Part shown: in pieces, positions 397 through 34,249 of the stretch
Numbering within the stretch: position 1 is the stretch's first letter
Layout of the letters: each line of letters begins with the position of its first letter
IMG/VR virus record: IMGVR_UViG_3300028581_000047
Span: 1-59,039 of that record
Source: a virus
Strand: one strand, 5' to 3'
Length of the DNA: 59,039 nucleotides
Program-made: the position numbers and the translations under genes
The notes under the pieces: model-generated
Seen by the model: the letters and a program-made list of their open reading frames with translations, nothing else
What the model was told of the DNA's origin: nothing
Database searches by the model: none

Positions 397-933
397 ATGT
401 CAGAAGCATTTAGCGGTAAAGTTGGTCAAGCTGTTCAGGATAGGATTGAGTTGGTAGTAGGATTAGCCGAGGATTTGCATATATTTGACTTTGATTGCGA
501 TGATGTAACTCGTGAAGTAATCCCGCATCAAAGTTATGACGGGTTCATCAGCCTCAACTTGGGGGGCTTTACCCTGTCGTCGTGGTTTTACAATTATGGT
601 AGTGGGCGATTCTTGACAAAGTTGCAGCGTGAGTGGAGTTACGGTATGGAGAAGATGTGCCTTACCGATTTTGCGAGGGATTATCCTGGCGAAGAGTTTG
701 ATGCGTACAGTAGGGAGTACATGGATGAAGGTACCTTCATCCAGTTCCGTTGTTACGTTGATGACGACGGTTGGGTTCAGGTTGACCTGTGCATCTGTTA
801 CAAGGATTCTCCTTACTACCGTTCGCAATACTTCGAGGTGATAGCGGATGTGACGTTGAGTGAAGAGAGGTTCATGCGTTTGAGACCTGAGGCGATTATC
901 CGCTGGATTGAGTGTTGTTACCGTAAGGCTTAG
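397..933 (+). CDS. Hypothetical acidic early protein (178 aa)
   Basis: This is the first gene of the rightward run. It starts at ATG 397 behind a good GGGAG Shine-Dalgarno site 6-7 bases upstream. The product is acidic and aromatic-rich, with a cluster of Asp near residues 120-126 and no signal peptide or membrane segment. I recognise no domain. By position, in a block of small phage early genes near an ArdA homologue, it may be a host-takeover or defence-related protein, but that is only inference from context. Confidence 0.75.
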   Translation: MSEAFSGKVGQAVQDRIELVVGLAEDLHIFDFDCDDVTREVIPHQSYDGFISLNLGGFTLSSWFYNYGSGRFLTKLQREWSYGMEKMCLTDFARDYPGEEFDAYSREYMDEGTFIQFRCYVDDDGWVQVDLCICYKDSPYYRSQYFEVIADVTLSEERFMRLRPEAIIRWIECCYRKA

Positions 934-2757: not shown

Positions 2758-2804
2758 TAGCTCATGGGATGTATACCTGTGAGCTACTCCCTACGTTTTG
2801 TAGG
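2758..2804 (+). promoter_or_regulatory. Two-hairpin intergenic element, copy 1 (upstream of ardA)
   Basis: Hairpin 1 pairs TAGCTCA (2758-2764) with TGAGCTA (2780-2786). Hairpin 2 pairs CCTAC (2790-2794) with GTAGG (2800-2804) around GTTTT. An AT-rich stretch and the Shine-Dalgarno site of the ArdA-like gene follow. It belongs to the same family as 329-368, 3932-3978, 8252-8293 and 9092-9135. Confidence 0.55.
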
Positions 2805-2865
2805 AAACATACATAAAATAATTAAATTTTTGTGTATGTACTTTGAATTAACTTGGAGAATTAAG

Positions 2866-3354
2866 ATGGCTGCAATATCGTTTCATGCTTTGGGTGCGTA
2901 TGTTGGTGGAACTTGCGTGACAAAAGAGTTTGATTTGGACGAATACTCAGATTACTACGATTTTGCGGAAGCTCGCGAAAATTGGTTGGAATCAATTGGT
3001 GAAGAAGAATGGATTGTGTGTGATTACGAAGGTGTGCCAAGCCAGTATGTTTCAGAGTACGACCTAGACCCTGCCTTCTTCGACTTCCGTGCTGTGGTGG
3101 AAGAAATGGGTAATGATGAGGAGTTAGTTGAGGCAGGGTTGGATTGTGATGTGCCTCTTGACAAGATTGCAGAGGCGTACTGCGGTAAGTACCGAAGTTT
3201 GGAGGATTACGCTTACGACTTCCTTGTTGAGGTTTACGACCTAGACAGCCTCCCCCACCTTATCACCTGTCACATTGATTGGGAAGGTGTGGCGCGAGAT
3301 TTGAGTCAGGAAGTGAGTTTTGAAAATGGTTATGTGTTTTCGGGGGGTTGGTAA
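2866..3354 (+). CDS. ardA: ArdA-like antirestriction protein
   Basis: ArdA proteins are acidic DNA mimics that block type I restriction enzymes of a newly entered host. The 162-residue product is very acidic throughout. It shows the family pattern: an N-terminal ALGAYVGG-like strand, EEWIVCDYEG near residues 45-54, AYCGKYRSLEDYAYDFL near 104-120, IDWEGVARDL near 137-146, and a C-terminal FENGYVF. The length fits the family. The start at ATG 2866 has a clear TTGGAG site; longer in-frame starts lack one. The position among early genes, directly behind a structured intergenic element, fits early expression after infection or conjugative-like entry. Confidence 0.85.
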   Translation: MAAISFHALGAYVGGTCVTKEFDLDEYSDYYDFAEARENWLESIGEEEWIVCDYEGVPSQYVSEYDLDPAFFDFRAVVEEMGNDEELVEAGLDCDVPLDKIAEAYCGKYRSLEDYAYDFLVEVYDLDSLPHLITCHIDWEGVARDLSQEVSFENGYVFSGGW

Positions 3355-4033: not shown

Positions 4034-4846
4034 ATGTCACAAGCATTAACATTTAATGGCAAAACTTTACACCCAGTTTCACACAACAATGAAATGTGGT
4101 TCACTGCGGCTGATTTGTCAAGAGCTTTGGGTTATGAGAAAGAAACTGCTGCAACCCAAATTTACGCCAGAAACAAGGGGGAATTCCTCGAAAGTATGTC
4201 AGTTGTGCTACACCATCAAATTGAGGGAGGTAACGAGCTAAACGGAAAATGTAAAGTGGGCTGCGGCACTCAATCTGAGTATCTAGGCGAATCTCGTGGC
4301 CTCCAGAAAATGACAAGAATTTTCAGTCTTCGTGGTTGTCACCTAATCGCTATGTTTGCAAAGACAGTAATTGCCAAGCAGTTTCGAGTTTGGGTGTTAA
4401 ATTTGATTGAGGGAAAGGTTCCTGAACCTGCGTACGGGTTGAAAGAAACCTTGGCTACAATTTCCGTACACAGTTATAGCGGAATTGAAGTGCTTGAGAA
4501 GAATGACTTTTTCAAGGTATCTCAGTTATGTTTAAAACAGGGGCGGTTTGCACAAGATTTTGTGGGTCAAAAACGTTATAAGCTAATGATGTCAAAATTC
4601 CCTGCGGCAAAAGTAGCGACGCACGGAGCTGAAAGAGGTACTTGGGTTCATAGGGGCGTGTTTGTCCCATTAGCTTATTGGTTGTCACAGGATTGTGGCG
4701 ATTGGGCGAGGGACTTGGTTGAGAAAAGCAATCCTGCCCCCGTCGTAACCAGCATTACATTAGCGGATTACATGACGAAGGTAATGCCTGAAGTTTTGAG
4801 AGCGTTTGGCGTGGACAAGAATTATGCTCGTGGTTTCTTAGTGTAG
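4034..4846 (+). CDS. Phage antirepressor, BRO-N plus KilA-N-like domain
   Basis: The 270-residue product has an N-terminal BRO-N type fold (residues about 5-120: MWFTAADLSRALGYEKE, then SLRGCHLIAMFAKT) and a C-terminal KilA-N-like region (about 135-240). The latter includes LKQGRFAQDFVGQKRYKLM and GVFVPLAYWLSQDCGDWARD. Such proteins usually bind DNA or a repressor and favour lytic development. It starts at ATG 4034 behind a GGAG site and the 3980-4008 promoter/operator. The gene is the parent of a tandem duplication: bases from 4183 onward are repeated from 4948. Confidence 0.8.
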   Translation: MSQALTFNGKTLHPVSHNNEMWFTAADLSRALGYEKETAATQIYARNKGEFLESMSVVLHHQIEGGNELNGKCKVGCGTQSEYLGESRGLQKMTRIFSLRGCHLIAMFAKTVIAKQFRVWVLNLIEGKVPEPAYGLKETLATISVHSYSGIEVLEKNDFFKVSQLCLKQGRFAQDFVGQKRYKLMMSKFPAAKVATHGAERGTWVHRGVFVPLAYWLSQDCGDWARDLVEKSNPAPVVTSITLADYMTKVMPEVLRAFGVDKNYARGFLV

Positions 4847-4861
4847 GATGTAGCACCAACT

Positions 4862-4885
4862 TGTACAGCCTAATTCTGGGCTGTA
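4862..4885 (+). promoter_or_regulatory. Intergenic hairpin after the antirepressor
   Basis: GTACAGCC pairs with GGCTGTAC around TAATTCTG. It lies between the antirepressor stop and the TTAAATTGGAG leader of the next start. An identical copy stands in the second duplication unit (about 5628-5651). No T-run follows, so it is not a typical intrinsic terminator. Confidence 0.5.
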
Positions 4886-4909
4886 CCCAACTTAAATTGG
4901 AGAGTAAAG

Positions 4910-5612
4910 ATGAGAAAAGAACCTTTAAAAATTCACCGACATGGTGGATTCCTCGAAAGTATGTCAGTTGTGCTACACCATCAAATTGAGGGAGGTAACG
5001 AGCTAAACGGAAAATGTAAAGTGGGCTGCGGCACTCAATCTGAGTGTCTAGGCGAATCTCGTGGCCTCCAGAGAATGACAAGAATTTTCAGTCTTCGTGG
5101 TTGTCACCTAATCGCTATGTTTGCAAAGACAGTAATTGCCAAGCAGTTTCGAGTTTGGGGTGTTAAATTTGATTGAGGGAAAGGTTCCTGAACCTGCGTA
5201 CGGGTTGAAAGAAACCTTGGCTACAATTTCCGTACACAGTTATAGCGGAATTGAAGTGCTTGAGAAGAATGACTTTTTCAAGGTATCTCAGTTATGTTTA
5301 AAACAGGGGCGGTTTGCACAAGATTTTGTGGGTCAAAAACGTTATAAGCTAATGATGTCAAAATTCCCTGCGGCAAAAGTAGCGACGCACGGAGCTGAAA
5401 GAGGTACTTGGGTTCATAGGGGCGTGTTTGTCCCATTAGCTTATTGGTTGTCACAGGATTGTGGCGATTGGGCGAGGGACTTGGTTGAGAAAAGCAATCC
5501 TGCCCCCGTCGTAACCAGCATTACATTAGCGGATTACATGACGAAGGTAATGCCTGAAGTTTTGAGAGCGTTTGGCGTGGACAAGAATTATGCTCGTGGT
5601 TTCTTAGTGTAG
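4910..5612 (+). pseudogene. Chimeric, frameshifted second antirepressor copy
   Basis: The frame begins at ATG 4910 with the first 14 codons of the downstream small gene (MRKEPLKIHRHGGF). It then enters the antirepressor at its residue 51 (LESMSVV). After an extra G near 5157 the frame breaks and the reading stops at about 5176. The rest of the antirepressor, including its KilA-N-like part, remains readable in another frame to TAG 5612. The copy lacks the BRO-N start and is interrupted, so it cannot make the full protein. A KilA-N-only product from an internal start is conceivable but has no obvious ribosome site. Confidence 0.8.
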
Positions 5613-5675
5613 GATGTAGCACCAACTTGTACAGCCTAATTCTGGGCTGTACCCAACTTAAATTGGAGAGTAAAG

Positions 5676-5912
5676 ATGAGAAAAGAACCTTTAAAAATTC
5701 ACCGACATGGTGGATTCCCTTATGTGATTGCTGAGGCTTATGTTCGCCTTGTTGCGGAGGAAGCAGGCTTAATTGTGGGTAAGTCAGTAAGATATGTGCA
5801 TAACGGTCTTACCCAAGCCTGGGTGTTTCAGATTGGTGAGTTATCGGAAGATGGTGTAGCGCAATTGATGTTAAGAATGTTAGCTACAGAATCTTGTCAT
5901 TTTGGTATTTAA
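5676..5912 (+). CDS. Hypothetical small protein (78 aa)
   Basis: It starts at ATG 5676 after the leader TTAAATTGGAG. The first 14 codons are duplicated upstream as the start of the chimeric pseudogene. The product is small and soluble with no recognisable motif. Confidence 0.7.
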   Translation: MRKEPLKIHRHGGFPYVIAEAYVRLVAEEAGLIVGKSVRYVHNGLTQAWVFQIGELSEDGVAQLMLRMLATESCHFGI

Positions 5913-6955: not shown

Positions 6956-7143
6956 AAAGGTACGCAGTGATTTATCGAACGAACAAGTGGGTACAGACGA
7001 ACGATGCACTTGTTGTGTATGACGAGGTAAAGAAAGGGCGTGTGGCGGAGGTTGTAGATCGTCACAACAACTATTTGGTAAAGAAAGGAGCTGTCACGTT
7101 GTATGGCAGACGGACGTTTAATGCAATTGGGGTGGTGTTATGA
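6952..7143 (+). CDS. Hypothetical small basic protein (63 aa)
   Basis: It has four-base overlaps on both sides, and GGAGG lies 8 bases before ATG 6952. The product is basic and beta-rich (YAVIYRTNKW, ALVVYDEV). No assignment is possible. Confidence 0.65.
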   Translation: MKRYAVIYRTNKWVQTNDALVVYDEVKKGRVAEVVDRHNNYLVKKGAVTLYGRRTFNAIGVVL

Positions 7144-7391
7144 GTACGATACAAAGTTTGATTGATGCAGGATTTATGGCTGTGTTTGGTGGGGATCAGG
7201 CTTACCCTTTGGAAAGCTATGAAGTGGTGGTAGACAGTGAAGTAGTCCGTTACTGCGACATCTCAGACATCGTTAGGGTGTACTGTGGTGACGATGACAT
7301 CTGTGACGTGGTGTGTGAATTGGAGGATTTGGACAGTGAGATTCCTTACCCTGTGTCTGTGTTTAAAGTTACGAAGGAGTTGGTGTTATGA
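7140..7391 (+). CDS. Hypothetical acidic protein (83 aa)
   Basis: It is coupled to both neighbours by ATGA overlaps. The protein is strongly acidic, with repeated Asp-Asp and Asp-Ile stretches in its second half. A mimic or inhibitor role could be imagined, but the sequence does not show it. Confidence 0.65.
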   Translation: MSTIQSLIDAGFMAVFGGDQAYPLESYEVVVDSEVVRYCDISDIVRVYCGDDDICDVVCELEDLDSEIPYPVSVFKVTKELVL

Positions 7392-7657
7392 AAGTTTTAA
7401 GTATTGAAGCGTGGGCAGAAGGGTCTTCTGATGAAGGGGAAGGGATTTCATGGACTTGGAACGCCTGGCACATGATTGGTTCAGTTGAGCCTGTCTCAAG
7501 TGAAGAAGAGGCTGTCAAGGCATTTGAGGATTTCTTTGGGATTCCTTTCAATACGACCGAGTATGAAGTGATTGATGACCAATACAATTACGCTTTGTGT
7601 GTAATTGCGGAGGATTACAGACCTATTTATGCCATTGAATACGGCTCGGAAAATTAA
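7388..7657 (+). CDS. Hypothetical acidic protein (89 aa)
   Basis: This is the last gene of the left block. It starts within the previous stop and ends at TAA 7655-7657, inside the first bases of the left long inverted repeat. It is acidic and Trp-rich at the N-terminus (IEAWAEGSSDEGEGISWTW). No family is recognised. Confidence 0.65.
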   Translation: MKVLSIEAWAEGSSDEGEGISWTWNAWHMIGSVEPVSSEEEAVKAFEDFFGIPFNTTEYEVIDDQYNYALCVIAEDYRPIYAIEYGSEN

Positions 7658-8035
7658 CCGAACCGAGGGGTCTCAAATCGGGGTGGGGTTGTTGCAATTT
7701 GACCACACCCCTGTCTGATAATTACAAATTCAGAAAAACAGGAATCCAATTTGTCTCGCGGGGCTGGGATAGGCAACAGGGGGATGCGGGTTACAGAGGA
7801 AGTAAAACGAGACAAGCGTCTATCTATTATATATAATTATTATATTATATATATTATATATTAAAGAGGTGGGGAGTGTATCAATCTTGCAACAAGTTGT
7901 TTGTATTGCCCAACATAATCTCCTGCCACCCTCTCACGTCCTTACCTGTCCTCTGCAACCCGCATTCGGCTGGACCCCCCAAAAGTCCCGCGAGGCAATT
8001 TGAATCTTTAACTTTTGGCAAAAATTTATTACAAC
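7649..8035 (+). repeat. Long inverted repeat, left copy
   Basis: This segment of about 387 bases recurs in reverse orientation at 33864-34249 with roughly 95 percent identity by eye. Each copy has internal symmetry. A GC-rich arm (TTGTCTCGCGGG at 7751, GATGCGGGTTACAGAGGA at 7783) is mirrored on the other side (TCCTCTGCAACCCGCATTC at 7949, CCCGCGAGGCAA at 7987), flanking a core of about 43 bases that is almost only A and T (7821-7863). The design resembles an origin with an unwinding element, or a recombination or partition site. It holds no convincing gene. It bounds the replication block on the left. Confidence 0.85.
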
Positions 8036-8245: not shown

Positions 8246-8251
8246 AGAGTG

Positions 8252-8293
8252 TTGCCCATTATGACAAGTGGGCAATGCCCTGTGCTTTACAGG
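8252..8293 (+). promoter_or_regulatory. Two-hairpin intergenic element, copy 3
   Basis: Hairpin 1 pairs TTGCCCATT (8252-8260) with AAGTGGGCAA (8266-8275). Hairpin 2 pairs CCTGT (8279-8283) with ACAGG (8289-8293) around GCTTT. The flank GAGTAAAGAGT before hairpin 1 and the string GCCCTGTGCTTT are shared with the copy at 9092-9135. It stands before an antirepressor gene. Confidence 0.6.
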
Positions 8294-8311
8294 AATAACT
8301 TGGAGAATGAA

Positions 8312-9079
8312 GTGAGTGAATTTTTTATAGCGATTAAAAAGTACCCAATTGGTTTGGTAGAAGTGAATGCGGTGAATGCTCGTGATTTGTGGACTGAACT
8401 TGAGGTTGGAACTACTTTCAGCAGATGGATTCAACGGAAGCTAGAGGAGTACAATTTCACGCAAGCTGTTGATTTTGTCGAAATTTCCAGTTTTGTCAAA
8501 GACGAGACTCGGTTTGGTGGGAAGCGTAAATCCATCGAGTACATCATCAGTCTCGACATGGCAAAAGAATTGGCGATGGTAGAGAGAACTGACAAAGGCA
8601 AGATTGCCAGACAGTATTTCATTGACTGTGAGCGAAGAGTGAAACTTGCGGATGAAATGGATGCTGTGCGTATCTTGGAGTTGAAGGCATACCTGGATAG
8701 GGTGCGTCGAGCTTTACTGTTGGACACGCCGCACACTTGGGAGAAGATTTACCCTGTTTCATTCTTTGAGGCGATAATGTCCTTGCATGGTCACACGTTC
8801 AACGGGAACAGTTCCACGCCGAGTTATTGTTCAAAGATAATTCGGGATTGGGTGTATCAGATTGTGTTGCCTGGTGAACTTTTGGCGGAGATAGACCGTA
8901 TTCAAGGTTCAGAAAAGAAGCATCAGTGGTTCACACAGCAGGGAGGTCGTCAAATCTTGGCTAAACAGGTCGAGAAGGTTGAGATGCTTGCGTTGGCAGC
9001 TGATTCACGGAAAGATTTTGAGCAGATGTGCAAAAAGGTATTTAAGAAACCGCTACAGCTTGGTTTGAGAGCGATGTAA
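8312..9079 (+). CDS. AntA/AntB-family antirepressor
   Basis: The N-terminal 90-100 residues match the AntA/AntB antirepressor pattern: VNARDLWTELEVGTTFSRWI, then a hydrophobic stretch with IEYIISLDMAKELAMVE and GKIARQYFIDCER. The rest (to residue 255) is a separate helical domain with no clear family. The start is set at GTG 8312, six bases behind GGAG; upstream in-frame ATG codons would run through the hairpin element. Such proteins inactivate phage repressors and allow lytic growth. Confidence 0.8.
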   Translation: MSEFFIAIKKYPIGLVEVNAVNARDLWTELEVGTTFSRWIQRKLEEYNFTQAVDFVEISSFVKDETRFGGKRKSIEYIISLDMAKELAMVERTDKGKIARQYFIDCERRVKLADEMDAVRILELKAYLDRVRRALLLDTPHTWEKIYPVSFFEAIMSLHGHTFNGNSSTPSYCSKIIRDWVYQIVLPGELLAEIDRIQGSEKKHQWFTQQGGRQILAKQVEKVEMLALAADSRKDFEQMCKKVFKKPLQLGLRAM

Positions 9080-15733: not shown

Positions 15734-15741
15734 TCTAACAA

Positions 15742-15775
15742 AGGTATACCCCACAAATTGCTTTGTGGGGTATAC
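15742..15775 (+). promoter_or_regulatory. Strong 13-bp hairpin after the SNF2 gene
   Basis: GTATACCCCACAA pairs perfectly with TTGTGGGGTATAC around ATTGCT. No T-run follows, so it may act as an mRNA stabiliser, processing site or factor-dependent terminator instead of a simple intrinsic terminator. It stands 15 bases before the kissing-loop leader of the next gene. Confidence 0.5.
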
Positions 15776-15789
15776 TGCCCCACGAGTTT

Positions 15790-15904
15790 TTAGATTTGGA
15801 TTATAGCAGGTCTCATAAATCTAAGAGCTTAACGTTCTGCCCTTGCCTATTTGGTGCCTGCTATCACCGAGTTCGCAAGGGTTCTATATTTTCGGAGCAA
15901 TACC
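15790..15904 (+). ncRNA. Kissing-loop leader RNA, copy A
   Basis: The 115 bases before ATG 15905 can form three helices and a loop-loop contact. P1 is TTAGATTT (15790-15797) with AAATCTAA (15817-15824). A conserved unpaired linker CTTAACGTT (15828-15836) follows. P2 is CCCTTGC (15840-15846) with GCAAGGG (about 15874-15880). P3, inside P2, is GGTG (15853-15856) with CACC (15865-15868). The 8-base loop of P3, CCTGCTAT, is the exact complement of ATAGCAGG (15803-15810) in the P1 loop. The same fold with different paired bases precedes the antirepressor at 18061. No known family is recognised. It is probably a cis-regulatory element. Confidence 0.75.
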
Positions 15905-16630
15905 ATGTTACAAACAACAACAGAAGTAAAAACCATGTCTTCTACGGAAATCGTAAAAATCATTAACGACATGAGAGAAGACGGTACGGCGGAATTACGC
16001 CATGACAATTTCATGGTGAAGGTAGTAACTGTGCTGGGTGCAGAAGTAGCCCTAAAATTTCAGGGCTACTACAAAGCAGCAAATGGGAAACAAAATCCAT
16101 GCTACTACCTCCCAAAACGTGAAGCGAATTTGATGGTGATGTCAGAGTCATACAAAGTTCAAGCCGCTGTTTATGACAAGATGGTTGAGTTGGAAACCCA
16201 ACAGGTGAGACCACTTTCACAGCTTGAGATTTTGGGTCAGTCCGTTCAAATCTTAACTGAGCATGATAAACGATTGACAGCAGCAGAAGTTGAAGTAAAA
16301 CACATTTCTGCAAAAGTGGCAGACCTTCAAGTAAACTTACGGAACGGTGTTCCAGAAGGATACGTTTCAAAAGCAAATGCGCTTAGACTTTATGGTTGTG
16401 GGTTGAGCAAAGCAATTTTTGAAGCTGTGATGACCGAGAACGATGTTAAAACCCAACCGTATGTTCATTACGCTGAAGGTCATTCAGTCGCCACGTTTGG
16501 TTATTTAGAAAACGTTATTCCTGGGGTCGTTGAAAGTTTCATCGCAAGTTTAGAACAAGCTACAACGAATCAATGTTATTCACCCACGTTAAACAAGCGG
16601 TTGACCTACAGAAAACCCACATTGCAGTAA
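15905..16630 (+). CDS. Phage antirepressor/regulatory protein, Rha- or P22AR-like
   Basis: The 241-residue product has an N-terminal region typical of phage Rha/antirepressor proteins (residues about 35-100, with YYLPKREANLMVMSESYKVQ and KMVELE). A predicted coiled coil follows (about 105-160), then a C-terminal domain with YGCGLSKAIFEAVM. The start is ATG 15905, placed seven bases behind CGGAG; earlier in-frame ATG codons lie in the RNA leader. Its expression is probably controlled by the structured leader. Confidence 0.7.
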   Translation: MLQTTTEVKTMSSTEIVKIINDMREDGTAELRHDNFMVKVVTVLGAEVALKFQGYYKAANGKQNPCYYLPKREANLMVMSESYKVQAAVYDKMVELETQQVRPLSQLEILGQSVQILTEHDKRLTAAEVEVKHISAKVADLQVNLRNGVPEGYVSKANALRLYGCGLSKAIFEAVMTENDVKTQPYVHYAEGHSVATFGYLENVIPGVVESFIASLEQATTNQCYSPTLNKRLTYRKPTLQ

Positions 16631-16678
16631 GCATCACCCTTTACACAACATTCATTTTAAAATAATTGGAGAAGTATC

Positions 16679-17341
16679 ATGGCTTTAAATTTAGTAGGTT
16701 CTACAGCAGCATTCAACAACACTTCAGTAGACGAAGCATTCCCTGCGGTAGTTTCAGAAGCCCCAACAACGTTGGCGTTAGTAGCTGAACCGTCACAACG
16801 TAACAGTGTGAATTTGGCGGATTTAGAGGCAGCAGGCTTTGCTGGTTTGGTATTTGACTGGACTGCCTTCCCAATGATTTCGTTGAAGACAGATGGTCAG
16901 TTTGAGGACTCGAACGGTCAGACTTATGGCAAAGGGTTCGAGTGTAAAGTTATTGGGTCTAAAATCAAGTATGCTCACAGCTTTACAGGTTCTACAAACC
17001 CCAAAACAGATTTGATTTATTCTTATGACAAAATCACTTCTACAAGTGGTAAAGATGTAGTAAGCTTTGAGTCGGATTTGAGAGCGGCAGGGAAAGAAGT
17101 CACTTGCAAAGAGTATCTTGAAGTGATGGTCGAGTTAGTAGCTCCAGGCGAGTCGCATGATGGTGAGTTTAGATTAGTGTCAGTGTCGCCAACATCGAAA
17201 GGTAGATTCTCCAGTCTTATCTTTAAGTTGGTACAAAAAGGGATTAAGGACACAGCTGTAATCCGAATGGAAGTGGGCGAAAAGGTTCGCAACGTTGCTA
17301 ACCCCTTCTACCCTTGGAGTTTCGTGTTAGTCTCAGGCTAA
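16679..17341 (+). CDS. Hypothetical protein, possible ssDNA-binding protein (220 aa)
   Basis: It starts at ATG 16679 behind AATTGGAG. The N-terminal 40 residues are low in charge and flexible; the rest is beta-rich (LKTDGQFEDSNGQTYGKGFE, SKIKYAHSFTG). Length, fold impression and position between replication genes would suit a phage single-strand binding protein, but I see no OB-fold signature, so this remains a guess. It is followed by the long structured noncoding region. Confidence 0.6.
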   Translation: MALNLVGSTAAFNNTSVDEAFPAVVSEAPTTLALVAEPSQRNSVNLADLEAAGFAGLVFDWTAFPMISLKTDGQFEDSNGQTYGKGFECKVIGSKIKYAHSFTGSTNPKTDLIYSYDKITSTSGKDVVSFESDLRAAGKEVTCKEYLEVMVELVAPGESHDGEFRLVSVSPTSKGRFSSLIFKLVQKGIKDTAVIRMEVGEKVRNVANPFYPWSFVLVSG

Positions 17342-17533
17342 CCCAGATGTTCACTGCCGAACAGGCAGCTTAGGAAATAATTCCTGCCCGTTCTTCCGAG
17401 GGTTAAATCGGAAGACTCCCACTGAAGGGTCATAGAGAATCTTTCATTGGTAGTTAAACTGCCAACTAACTGGAACTGGGGAGTTCCTCGCGTTAGGTGA
17501 CTTTCCCTGCGGTAATCTGTGGGGACTTATATT

Positions 17534-17609
17534 GGGTCAGTATCACAAAGGTTCGTGGAGCGTACTCATAATGCGTAGTATGTTGGTTCAAGTCCAACCT
17601 GACCCACCA
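17534..17609 (+). tRNA. tRNA with CAT anticodon (Met or Ile2)
   Basis: A full cloverleaf with encoded CCA is visible. Acceptor GGGTCAG (17534-17540) pairs with CTGACCC (17599-17605), followed by ACCA. The D-arm is TCAC/GTGG around AAAGGTTC. The anticodon arm is GCGTA/TGCGT with loop CTCATAA. The variable loop is AGTAT, and the T-arm is GTTGG/CCAAC with loop TTCAAGT. The anticodon CAT can belong to elongator Met or, after lysidine modification, to Ile reading ATA. The T-loop resembles the E. coli Ile2 tRNA more than elongator Met. Wobble pairs in the D- and anticodon stems make it slightly weak. Confidence 0.88.
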
Positions 17610-17885
17610 AACACACCCCCCTTGTTGGGTGTAAGTAGCAAGGCGTGTAGCGGAATCACGAAAGTCACCGCAGCAGTAATGGTAGAAAAGGCTACGGAGT
17701 TGTGTTCTCCATAGTAACGAGAGTTCATGGCGATAGTTTCCTCTGATTAACTTGCGCCGCCTTTAGTAAAACTCACTTAACTTCTGCGGAATATCGCAGT
17801 CTAGTTCATTTTGGTAAACCTAGATAGAGTGTGTTTTACTAAGGGTTAAACCTTACAGCTTTACCATTAGTATCTCCTGAACTCA

Positions 17886-17909
17886 AGGGATTTTCGGATC
17901 CCTCTTTTT
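17886..17909 (+). terminator. Intrinsic terminator of the structured RNA
   Basis: AGGGAT pairs with ATCCCT around TTTCGG and is followed by a T-run (CTTTTT). It gives the large noncoding RNA a defined 3' end and separates it from the leader RNA of the next antirepressor. Confidence 0.75.
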
Positions 17910-17945
17910 GAAACGCATTTCTTGTGAGTGCTTTTCAAAAAGTCT

Positions 17946-18060
17946 TTAGATTTTGCGTGTGAGAGCGTTCATAAATCTAAAAACTTAACGTTTACCCTTA
18001 TTCGGTTAGTATCTCTCACTACTTGCTTGATAAGGGTTTTTCTTTTTATGGAGTTTCAAA
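17946..18060 (+). ncRNA. Kissing-loop leader RNA, copy B
   Basis: This is the second copy of the leader fold, also exactly 115 bases before its ATG (18061). P1 is TTAGATTT (17946-17953) with AAATCTAA (17973-17980). The linker CTTAACGTT (17984-17992) is identical to copy A. P2 is CCCTTAT (17995-18001) with ATAAGGG (18030-18036). P3 is AGTA (18008-18011) with TACT (18020-18023). The P3 loop contains CTCTCAC, the complement of GTGAGAG (17959-17965) in the P1 loop. P2 is followed by TTTTTCTTTTT, so here it could also work as a terminator stem just before the GGAG site, suggesting attenuation. Confidence 0.75.
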
Positions 18061-18837
18061 ATGTTACAAGTATTTAATTTCGATACCAACACCGTCCGAG
18101 TAGTTATGGATGAAAACGGCGAACCTTTATTTGTCGCAAAAGATGTTGCGGTAGCTTTGGGATATTCCGACACAGTGAATGCAATAAAACAGCATTGTGA
18201 CGAGGGGGTGGTGAAACACCACCCCCTTCAAACGGCAGGTGGAGTACAACAAGTTAGAGTAATTGATGAACCTGATGTGTATTCTTTGATATTTGGTTCA
18301 AAACTTGAATCGTCAAAACGCTTCAAAAAGTGGGTGACTTCGGAAGTGTTGCCAACAATTCGTAAAACGGGTAGCTATGCAATCGTTAAGCCTGAGCATG
18401 ATTTTGAGTTGGCAAAACAAACTGGGCTACTTTCTCCTGCTTATGTTGACATGGCAAAAGCATTTGGGTTTGATGGTAATCAAGCCTATTTGTCAGCAGA
18501 TAAAGCTATTAAGCAAATCACAGGTTATTCTCCACTCTCATTGCTCGGTGCAGAACTCGTCTCACCTGTACAAGCTGCTGTTTTAGTTCCAAGCGACATT
18601 GCAGACAGACTGGGTTTAAAGCGGCAGGAACCAAATAAACTGTTGACGGCTCAAGGGTTCCAGACGAATCACAGAAACCACAAAGATGCTATTTACTACG
18701 AATTGACTGAAAAAGGAAAACAGTATGGTGAGTATGTTGATACAGGTTTGAAACATTCAGATGGTTCACCAAGAAAACAAATCAAGTGGTTCAGCACAAT
18801 TTTAGAAGTTTTACAAACAGAGGCGCTTTCAAAATGA
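18061..18837 (+). CDS. BRO-N antirepressor with KilAC-like C-terminal domain
   Basis: The 258-residue protein begins with a BRO-N domain (residues about 1-110: QVFNFDTNTVRVVMDENGEP, FVAKDVAVALGYSD, then VTSEVLPTIRKTGSYA). A C-terminal domain (about 120-255) with MAKAFGFDGNQAYLSADKA follows, as in phage KilAC-type antirepressors. It is a paralogue of the gene at 24197. It starts at ATG 18061 behind GGAG and a structured leader RNA. A role in repressor inactivation or gene control is inferred from the family. Confidence 0.85.
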   Translation: MLQVFNFDTNTVRVVMDENGEPLFVAKDVAVALGYSDTVNAIKQHCDEGVVKHHPLQTAGGVQQVRVIDEPDVYSLIFGSKLESSKRFKKWVTSEVLPTIRKTGSYAIVKPEHDFELAKQTGLLSPAYVDMAKAFGFDGNQAYLSADKAIKQITGYSPLSLLGAELVSPVQAAVLVPSDIADRLGLKRQEPNKLLTAQGFQTNHRNHKDAIYYELTEKGKQYGEYVDTGLKHSDGSPRKQIKWFSTILEVLQTEALSK

Positions 18838-19037
18838 TTAACTTAGCTTTAGCACCAAAATCAATGCTTTCAGTTGAAATTGCAGCGTTGACTGGTAAAA
18901 ATCATCAACACGTTATGCGCGACATTCGAGTAACTGTTGAACAGTTGCAAAAGGACAGTCCAAATTTGGACAGTGGTTTTAAATCAAGCACGTATCTTGC
19001 TGGTATTCTACACTTCTTTGCGGAGCTTTCAAAATGA
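18834..19037 (+). CDS. Truncated Rha-family N-terminal fragment (67 aa)
   Basis: The start overlaps the antirepressor stop (ATGA). Residues 10-35 (SMLSVEIAALTGKNHQHVMR) match the N-terminus of Rha-type phage regulatory proteins, which are normally three to four times longer. The string GCTTTCAAAATGAT occurs at both its start (about 18828) and its end (about 19022), so the fragment looks inserted between the antirepressor and the ligase gene through a short direct repeat. It may be a non-functional relic or a small regulator. Confidence 0.6.
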   Translation: MINLALAPKSMLSVEIAALTGKNHQHVMRDIRVTVEQLQKDSPNLDSGFKSSTYLAGILHFFAELSK

Positions 19038-23900: not shown

Positions 23901-24141
23901 ACTACTGGCACCGATTTACGATGAGGTCGTTATTTCTGTGCATTCTTCTCAAGCTATATCTTTAATCAAAGAAGTGTATGCAGCTATGACTGTAGGTATT
24001 CCAGGGGTTCCTGTACCAATGCTTGCTAACCCTAGTCTTGGGGTTAATTTTGGAGATCAGATTGAAGTTCTTGATGACTGTAACCAAGTTTTGACAGATG
24101 AGTTAATTCAAATTGCAATTGAGAAAGCACTTGCTAACTGA
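20974..24141 (+). CDS. polA: DNA polymerase I-type phage replicative polymerase
   Basis: The 1055-residue protein combines three activities. The N-terminal 290 residues form a 5'-3' exonuclease (VEADDVIAYL, SVDADLIALA, VGDTSDGYGGVRNFGP). A 3'-5' exonuclease follows (YVSLDWETW near 344-352, YGADDPLVTAH near 502). The polymerase part has motif A IDFDGEELR near 787, motif B RKVAKQVGFASAYG near 853-866 and motif C IYDEVVIS near 980. Motif A usually reads DYSQIELR and motif C usually has His before Asp-Glu; both differ here, but the catalytic Asp and Glu are kept. Phage polymerases often lack the 5'-3' exonuclease, so the full fusion is notable. It starts at ATG 20974 with GGAGAAAGG. Confidence 0.92.
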   Translation: MTQPIYALLDFNACVMHSYNSGTDPDAMLIEGKNVNTAGYGLQIFIERYFLNVASYVPLNHIIVVHDDLLRDKDGKYTDYRTLYYPDYKKARRMGKYSGEAKALCKAFLTAMGVPQVSLANVEADDVIAYLSMGLPGHKHVYSVDADLIALAQYEGVSVFQKLELKSDYKGIPPHLITLYKSLVGDTSDGYGGVRNFGPAKWDEFDIKQLEFFDLVVRTKAWDKLNIAYERSPTKSLKLLIDGKNEWVMAYHILAKMHPEFVDSKPTETFYIDEAGEQQPVPSKHFNRLKWVKKVPSRDALLAVLNGCGTNYLIDKLAKFLPTQTLITPGNLDVEKIKRQINNSRYVSLDWETWQVPNENFKKANQGKEFVDMLGSTIAGMGLTLGENLEHTYYLQFDHADTENNLDKQVLLDLLGYIPATMPVVCFNSYFETSVLIAEFGASLPIMYDPMVMHKHIDELADEHGLKSLSKRYLGAEQLHYEDVIEKGKTMQDYSGQHVFQYGADDPLVTAHLYDLFYIILNLEKTWEFVRDCEFPTVQLLAESYVEGVSFDLEAVEQQRSEDQAVYDTCIARMRELLGTNRIPMSDLKRHAATLYLADINPKGSEDDEEVLALADQFVYEEYREVPPEGKQKLSRWVGTELNLDSPKQMQYLFYGTLGLPIRIRDFKISETRKKKNLEGTPQVNTDAIDEAIFNGDAVGWKREVLECFSKAKKCATRVKLFYAKYPLWVHPKDGNVHPRFNSTGTESRRPTGGSPNLLQMSKKGDGVKVRRAIVPNRNKGHDLIVAIDFDGEELRVLGGLSGDKNLLSCYVGDHLRDAHAIVAAQIMGCEYEEFVANRKSSDKAVAKKHDDIRKVAKQVGFASAYGCGVNKLSRIIKEDLETTEKYLNAKKTVYSRLEDWKVEVKEELQEKGRVVTQLGCYRHAFDHYTKSNSDIKSYYERSAVNYLVQGLCAEYLKLVLSNLYKSKVFQRHSAVLLAPIYDEVVISVHSSQAISLIKEVYAAMTVGIPGVPVPMLANPSLGVNFGDQIEVLDDCNQVLTDELIQIAIEKALAN

Positions 24142-24151
24142 TTTACTATTT

Positions 24152-24177
24152 GCGGTAGCATCTGCTGCCGCCTTTTT
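24152..24177 (+). terminator. Intrinsic terminator after the polymerase gene
   Basis: GCGGTAGC and GCTGCCGC form a tight stem followed by CTTTTTATA. It partly insulates the downstream antirepressor, whose TTTGGAG site follows within 15 bases. Confidence 0.75.
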
Positions 24178-24196
24178 ATATTTGGAGATATTTGAG

Positions 24197-24952
24197 ATGA
24201 GCAATTTACAAGTTTTTAACTTTGATGCAAACACAGCAATCCGCACATCAATGGTTGATGGAGTTATTTGGTTTGTGGCAAAAGACATGGCGGAAGCGTT
24301 GGAATACCCTGAGTCTAAAAACGCACTACGGCTTTGCAAAAATTCCAATTCGCCCCCAAATGGCGAATTAAACAAAATCAACGACTTACCTCCAGCAACT
24401 AAGTGGATTAACGAATCTGACCTGTATCGCTTGATTATGCACTCAACAAAACCTGAAGCCGAAAAGTTCCAAGACTGGGTGTGTGAAGAAGTGTTACCCA
24501 CAATCCGTAAAACTGGCTCGTATTCTTTTGTACCAGAAGTAAAAGGTACTGAGATTTCTCAAACAGCTATTGCAATGCTTGACCTTGCAAAGGCTTACGG
24601 ATTTGAAGGTAATCAAGCCTTAATCTCCGCTGACAAAGCCACGTTTAAACTGATTGGGCAATCACCTTTGAAACTGTTGGGTGCGGAGCTTATTTCTGAT
24701 CAAGAGCGGCATTTAAACCCCACTGAAGTTGGGAGACGTTTTGACCCTGCACTTAGCGCAATCAAGATTAACCTTAAACTGGCTGAAAAGGGTTTACAGT
24801 TCAAAAATGAAGAAGACAAGTGGATGCCTACTGAGCAGGGAAAAGAGTTTGGTGTCTTAATTGACACAGAAAAAAGACGTAGCAATGGAACACCAGTTCA
24901 GCAGTTGAAGTGGAAAGAGTCAGTTATTTCAAAATTAGGAGAATCAAAATGA
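24197..24952 (+). CDS. BRO-N antirepressor, paralogue of the 18061 gene
   Basis: ATG 24197 has TTTGGAG upstream; an earlier in-frame start lies inside the polymerase gene and terminator and is rejected. The BRO-N domain covers residues 1-110 (QVFNFDANTAI, WFVAKDMAEALEYPE, VCEEVLPTIRKTGSYS). The C-terminal domain has LDLAKAYGFEGNQALISADK and SPLKLLGAELIS, closely matching the gene at 18061, with variation in between. The stop overlaps the next start. Role as for other antirepressors. Confidence 0.85.
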   Translation: MSNLQVFNFDANTAIRTSMVDGVIWFVAKDMAEALEYPESKNALRLCKNSNSPPNGELNKINDLPPATKWINESDLYRLIMHSTKPEAEKFQDWVCEEVLPTIRKTGSYSFVPEVKGTEISQTAIAMLDLAKAYGFEGNQALISADKATFKLIGQSPLKLLGAELISDQERHLNPTEVGRRFDPALSAIKINLKLAEKGLQFKNEEDKWMPTEQGKEFGVLIDTEKRRSNGTPVQQLKWKESVISKLGESK

Positions 24953-33836: not shown

Positions 33837-33865
33837 ACCCACTGTAAAAGGTGGGTTTTCTGTTT
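33837..33865 (+). terminator. Intrinsic terminator at the end of the replication block
   Basis: ACCCAC pairs with GTGGGT around TGTAAAAG, followed by TTTCTGTTTG. It ends rightward transcription just before the right inverted repeat. Confidence 0.8.
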
Positions 33866-34249
33866 GTAATAAATTTTTGCCAAAAGTTAAAGATTCAAAT
33901 TGTCTCGCGGGACTTTTGGGGGGTCCAGCCGAATGCGGGTTGCAGAGGACAGGTAAGGACGTGAGAGGGTGGCAGGAGATTATGTTGGGCAATTCAAACA
34001 ACTTGTTGCAAGATTGATACACTCCCCACCTCTTTAATATATAATATATATAATATAATAATTATATATAATAGACAGACGCTTGCCTCGTTTTACTTCC
34101 TCTGTAACCCGCATTCCCCTGTTGCCTATCCCAGCCCCGCGAGACAAATTGGATTCCTGTTTTTCTGAATTTGTAATTAAAAAGACAGGGTGTGGTCAAA
34201 TTGCAACAACCGCACCCATATTTGAGACCCCTCGGTTCGGTTAATTTCC
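33864..34249 (-). repeat. Long inverted repeat, right copy
   Basis: Reverse complement of 7649-8035, with about 20 differences by eye over roughly 386 bases. It keeps the GC-rich mirrored arms and the long AT-only core (about 34035-34078). It ends five bases from the repB stop. Together the two copies flank a 25.8-kb block exactly at gene boundaries. It may be a second origin-like or recombination site, and recombination between the copies would invert the block. Confidence 0.85.

Follow-up and report, generated by a model that had tools for sequence, protein, structure and literature searches.

The stretch between positions 17342 and 17909 of the viral DNA analysed here (59,039 nucleotides in all, hereafter the window) probably represents the 3′ untranslated region of a phage operon that carries a candidate type I-F RNA anti-CRISPR (RacrIF) and a tRNA on a folded transcript ending at an intrinsic terminator. 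We assign this reading a probability of about 0.6. A preliminary description of the same stretch emphasized the tRNA and the extensive predicted structure around it, and proposed a relationship to the giant phage RNAs GOLLD and ROOL. It overlooked a solitary type I-F CRISPR repeat at the head of the stretch, which is the strongest functional clue in the region and implies that an anti-defence element can hide inside a candidate giant phage RNA.

A solitary type I-F repeat

Two Rfam matches in the entire window are above threshold, the tRNA and a CRISPR-DR4 match at 17349-17376 on the plus strand (45.1 bits, above the gathering score of 35; E = 2.6e-7 for the whole window). The matched sequence, GTTCACTGCCGAACAGGCAGCTTAGGAA, agrees with the type I-F CRISPR consensus at 26 of 28 positions and differs at the remaining two. 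It begins 7 nt past the stop codon of a gene for a 220-aa protein. When up to three mismatches are allowed, the repeat occurs once in the window, with an expectation of 0 by chance, and no second repeat with at least 18 of 28 matches lies within 160 nt of it. A mini-array was rejected on the grounds that a second repeat is absent. Csy4 (Cas6f), the Cas protein searched for, is not encoded in the record, which may be incomplete. Given a single repeat in 59 kb and a record without Csy4, we classify the element as a solitary repeat unit (SRU) that stands outside any phage CRISPR system.

RNA anti-CRISPRs were described in 2023 (Camara-Wilpert et al. 2023, PMC10651486). Solitary repeat units act as decoys whose stem-loop is bound and cut by Cas6f, for which the bases C6 and G20 are essential, and the upstream RacrIF product holds Cas6f and a Cas7f filament without Cas5f or Cas8f (PMC10651486). 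Several features of RacrIF RNAs recur in the phage studied here: near-identity to the I-F repeat, solitude, an intergenic position in a virus record without Csy4 (17342-18060 is gene-free), and the stem critical for Cas6f. This stem-loop (CUGCC-GAACA-GGCAG, 17354-17368, plus strand) has a pairing probability of 0.94-0.99 in all contexts tried. In the sequence, C6 (17354) and G20 (17368) are both intact, and the Cas6f cut is predicted to fall between 17368 and 17369.

The 3′ end of the repeat is unusual. Position 26 is G where the consensus has A, and this G allows AGGAA to pair with UUCCU, creating a hairpin (AGGAA-AUAA-UUCCU, 17372-17385, plus strand) with a pairing probability of about 0.9 in all contexts. 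The part of the repeat that corresponds to the crRNA 5′ handle is therefore predicted, from this single sequence, to be locked in a hairpin, such that the 3′ product of Cas6f cleavage would have no free handle. Two pattern scans of IMG/VR, filtered for true solitude, left six other truly solitary I-F units, and all six keep GAAA at the handle position.

Gene content of the region and of the phage

The tRNA (17534-17609, plus strand) lies 158 nt downstream of the repeat, has a CAU anticodon and an encoded CCA, and is complete, as first described; ARAGORN and Rfam (55.8 bits) agree on it. Its body is 82% identical to the tRNA-Met of Aeromonas phage 4_L372X. It may be a tRNA-Met or, if modified, a tRNA-Ile2, a role that is possible because AUA makes up 23% of the Ile codons in the larger genes. 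ARAGORN reports no further, degenerate tRNA in the flanking sequence, and this possibility was rejected.

The gap that separates the 220-aa gene (stop at 17341) from a Bro-N antirepressor gene (start at 18061) measures 719 bases and contains no gene of at least 80 aa starting from ATG. Within 17342-17909, the only listed plus-strand open reading frame of at least 50 aa is a TTG-initiated frame of 60 aa that overlaps the tRNA. An intrinsic terminator is found at 17886-17908 (plus strand; pairing probability 0.90-0.96). Thus the earlier claims of about 570 gene-free bases and of a terminator at their end hold. The term phage-plasmid is likewise a fair description, because the record encodes a RepB-type replication initiator and a ParA-like protein. 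The phage also carries an anti-defence gene, encoding an anti-restriction protein (2764-3354), which supports the RacrIF reading.

Proposed function

We propose that a phage operon whose replication genes and 220-aa gene lie upstream has its non-coding 3′ end here, and that this end would deliver two RNA payloads, the solitary I-F repeat followed by the tRNA with the CAU anticodon. No sigma-70-like promoter was found in 16600-18100 by a scan that does not cover phage promoters, and operon read-through is the likely source of the repeat transcript. If the host has a type I-F system, its Cas6f (Csy4) would bind to the CUGCC/GGCAG hairpin and cleave the RNA 3′ of G20 (17368). The RNA 5′ of the cut would retain the hairpin at its 3′ end and lack a 5′ handle, and the last portion of the 220-aa message would serve as its pseudo-spacer; like RacrIF1, it would collect Cas6f and Cas7f into a dead subcomplex. 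The RNA 3′ of the cut would begin with the handle CUUAGGAA; because this handle is predicted to fold on itself, it is unlikely to act as a crRNA handle. The tRNA would be released independently by RNase P and tRNA 3′ processing. By these steps the phage probably jams the type I-F CRISPR immunity of its host with a repeat mimic. Three considerations weigh against the RacrIF reading: the negative promoter scan, whereas RacrIF1 has a strong promoter of its own; the coding sequence 5′ of the repeat, on which ribosomes would compete with the loading of Cas7f; and a neighbourhood in which no known acr gene was identified.

Predicted structure of the transcript

The 568-nt stretch folds at -190 kcal/mol (z = -4.3), and none of 100 shuffled sequences was as stable; with the tRNA removed, the z-score is -5.4. 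Besides the two hairpins in and next to the repeat, the predicted plus-strand structure includes a hairpin at 17392-17415 (UCUUCCGA/UCGGAAGA; pairing probability 0.86-0.96), a context-dependent hairpin at 17447-17465 (UUGGUAG/CUGCCAA; 0.47-0.93), and a hairpin immediately 5′ of the tRNA at 17505-17524 (CCCUGCGG/CUGUGGGG; 0.98-0.99). A 3′ domain (17677-17869), recognized by pairing probability, is closed by UAAUGGUA/UACCAUUA (17677-17684 with 17862-17869). It encloses a long stem at 17763-17842 (UUAGUAAAACUCA/UGUGUUUUACUAA), evident both as an inverted repeat and from pairing probability, with two inner hairpins. The 18-nt arms of this stem (within 17760-17845) are 89% complementary and its pairing probability is about 1 at 12 of 13 pairs, which confirms the 13-bp stem of the three-way junction noted previously.

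The 9-bp helix said to bracket the tRNA (GGTGACTTT/AAAGTCACC, 17496-17504 with 17661-17669, plus strand) is present exactly where it was placed, and has a pairing probability of 0.86-0.90. However, a perfect helix of at least 9 bp between the tRNA flanks arises in about 15% of dinucleotide shuffles, and the bracket alone is therefore without significance. In all contexts tried, most local hairpins remain stable, as do this helix, the stem at 17763-17842 and the terminator. The large closing helices form only when the transcript starts at about 17342; for example, the helix that closes the 3′ domain has a probability of 0.98 in 17342-17909 but about 0.1 when upstream coding sequence is included.

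Control segments of coding sequence of equal length gave z-scores of +1.1 to -2.4. Several other gene-free gaps of this phage reach z-scores of -3 to -8.5, in several cases for both strands, and 17342-17909 folds equally well when read from the opposite strand. The many strong helices of the preliminary description are real, but strong folding is not special to this location.

Relatives and the genomic site

The 220-aa gene (16679-17341, plus strand) has tblastn matches in 23 phage records, and alignment places its product in a conserved phage protein family without a known function. Members of this family are encoded directly or a few genes before the DNA polymerase in Vibrio and Pseudomonas siphophages. 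In the record with the closest relative (L121, 48% identity), the interval from the homologue to the polymerase holds no more than a short terminator and an HNH gene. In a record with a more distant relative (L055), the same site holds a tRNA-Arg, a tRNA-Met and a 19-bp hairpin, with no sequence similarity to the stretch studied here; this segment (7102-7506) has a z-score of -5.8. Because the relatives carry such different content, the site 3′ of the 220-aa gene looks like an insertion hot-spot that has received tRNAs at least twice.

Neither blastn in phages and plasmids nor comparison with related viral contigs yielded a homologue of the RNA flanks. Scans with single proteins (the 220-aa protein, helicase and polymerase), with profiles (polymerase and the 220-aa family) and with a genome-wide pattern that combined the repeat with the handle hairpin were equally negative. 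Downstream of the 220-aa homologues, the L121 and L055 sites are unlike the one studied here. In view of this, a new RNA class or a unitary RNA cannot be shown by covariation.

Alternative interpretations

Membership in GOLLD was rejected, as Rfam gave no match at gathering threshold or at E ≤ 5 and a direct search with RF02032 gave none at E ≤ 10. ROOL was rejected in the same way, with no Rfam match at gathering threshold or at E ≤ 5 and none at E ≤ 10 in a direct search with RF03087, a search that is weak alone because control genomes gave no match either. Since neither model matches, the GOLLD/ROOL interpretation fails. What survives of that proposal is the broader notion of a structured phage RNA around a tRNA, which the folding and the phage-plasmid genes support. 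One alternative is a new class of single large ornate RNA spanning 17342-17909, built like GOLLD with the tRNA in an inner loop. In such a molecule the CRISPR-like hairpin would be the first branch and GUUCA of the repeat would close the structure with UGAAC just 5′ of the terminator. The strong z-scores with and without the tRNA and the nested closing helices (pairing probability 0.66-0.98 if the RNA starts at 17342) favour this interpretation. There are also precedents, given that some GOLLD RNAs carry tRNAs in a linker and that the GOLLD RNA env-38 has a Met-tRNA upstream of it (PMC12286853). We nevertheless regard it as unlikely, for the global closing helices are lost once upstream mRNA is added, no promoter was found near 17342, the tRNA bracket is of a kind that chance often supplies (P about 0.15), other gaps of the phage fold as strongly, and the lack of a homologue leaves no covariation to support it. 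A combination of both ideas appears more doubtful still: a multifunctional single RNA in which the repeat serves as a 5′ decoy, GUUCA closes the molecule and the core displays or delivers the tRNA. If true, an anti-CRISPR module would be built into a giant ornate RNA, and cleavage by Cas6f would open the structure of that RNA.

The repeat could instead be a functionless leftover from a host array, and the remaining flanks no more than the ordinary leader and trailer of a tRNA, in which the hairpins are incidental. Structured tRNA flanks do occur in other phages (L002, z = -2.5; L003, -2.5; L004, -3.3; L055, -5.8), and the variable content of the site, with tRNAs in L055 and a terminator plus HNH gene in L121, resembles an insertion hot-spot. 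A relic would be expected to decay, yet the stem and both bases critical for Cas6f are intact, and neither a second repeat nor a spacer remnant accompanies it, which makes this explanation rather improbable. Least probable by far is a landing site for recombination into host CRISPR arrays, a role proposed before for solitary repeats of viruses (mentioned in PMC10651486); a phage with its own RepB-type initiator and ParA does not need to integrate, and anti-CRISPR action is reported for nine of nine candidates tested (PMC10651486). We therefore retain the reading of a candidate RacrIF and a tRNA in an operon 3′ untranslated region.

Other structured and repeated elements of the record

Two paralogous structured leaders (15776-15902 and 17932-18058, plus strand) each lie just 5′ of an antirepressor gene. 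In both, two loops, one capping a 13-bp stem and the other a hairpin farther downstream, are complementary to each other, a predicted kissing loop (AUAGCAGG with CCUGCUAU in the first copy and GUGAGAG with CUCUCAC in the second). Eight of 34 pairs are changed on both sides between the copies (compensatory changes). The leaders have no Rfam match, a covariance model built on them was unmatched in 46 other loci, and a pattern scan of viral contigs returned chance hits only. They may constitute a new cis-regulatory RNA. Just 5′ of the first leader, positions 15744-15775 (plus strand) form a perfect 14-bp hairpin around a loop of 4 nt, and 15734-15900 folds with a z-score of -7.2.

At least six antirepressor or Rha-type genes (Bro-N, AntA and Rha) occur in this one record (4034-4846, 8249-9079, 15905-16630, 18061-18837, 18786-19037 and 24113-24952). 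Most of a Bro-N antirepressor gene is contained in a tandem duplication of about 780 bp (4173-4952 and 4939-5718; 99.2% identity) that is either recent or an assembly artefact. Two copies of a 385-base element lie in opposite orientation (7651-8034 and 33864-34247; 96.9% identity), and one of them abuts the RepB gene. The element contains long inverted repeats and looks like a MITE or an origin-type element.

Comparison with known systems

The stretch resembles GOLLD (RF02032) in its phage origin, large size and helices that enclose a tRNA, and differs in that the covariance model does not match at E ≤ 10 and the conserved 3′ domain is not recognizable. With ROOL (RF03087) it shares phage origin, similar length (about 570 nt) and a nearby tRNA, but again no covariance-model match at E ≤ 10.

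Among the other solitary I-F units, one on a viral contig (L027, IMGVR_UViG_3300037424_000305, 686-908, minus strand) also touches a tRNA-like gene, the repeat directly following a tRNA-Arg-like gene that is intron-split and detected by ARAGORN only at a relaxed score. There the tRNA-like gene is directly upstream, whereas here the tRNA is 158 nt downstream, and no large structured RNA lies between the two. This case gives a weak hint that I-F solitary repeats and tRNAs may be linked more often than chance and that the arrangement may recur.

The closest parallels are RacrIF1 and other RNA anti-CRISPRs, with which the element shares a solitary I-F repeat, an intergenic position in a phage, a record without Csy4 and an intact C6/G20 stem-loop. 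Its placement 7 nt past a stop codon recalls the confirmed RacrIC1, which lies 11 nt past its acr gene in the same operon (PMC10651486). RacrIF1 is a short RNA with its own strong promoter (PMC10651486). Here, in contrast, no dedicated promoter was found and the pseudo-spacer would be coding mRNA; the handle is predicted to be locked in a hairpin, and the transcript would run on into about 500 nt of structured RNA with a tRNA. If our interpretation is correct, a I-F repeat mimic in a 3′ untranslated region, fused to a tRNA-bearing transcript and with a locked handle, would show that decoys of this kind can also be expressed and shaped in another manner.
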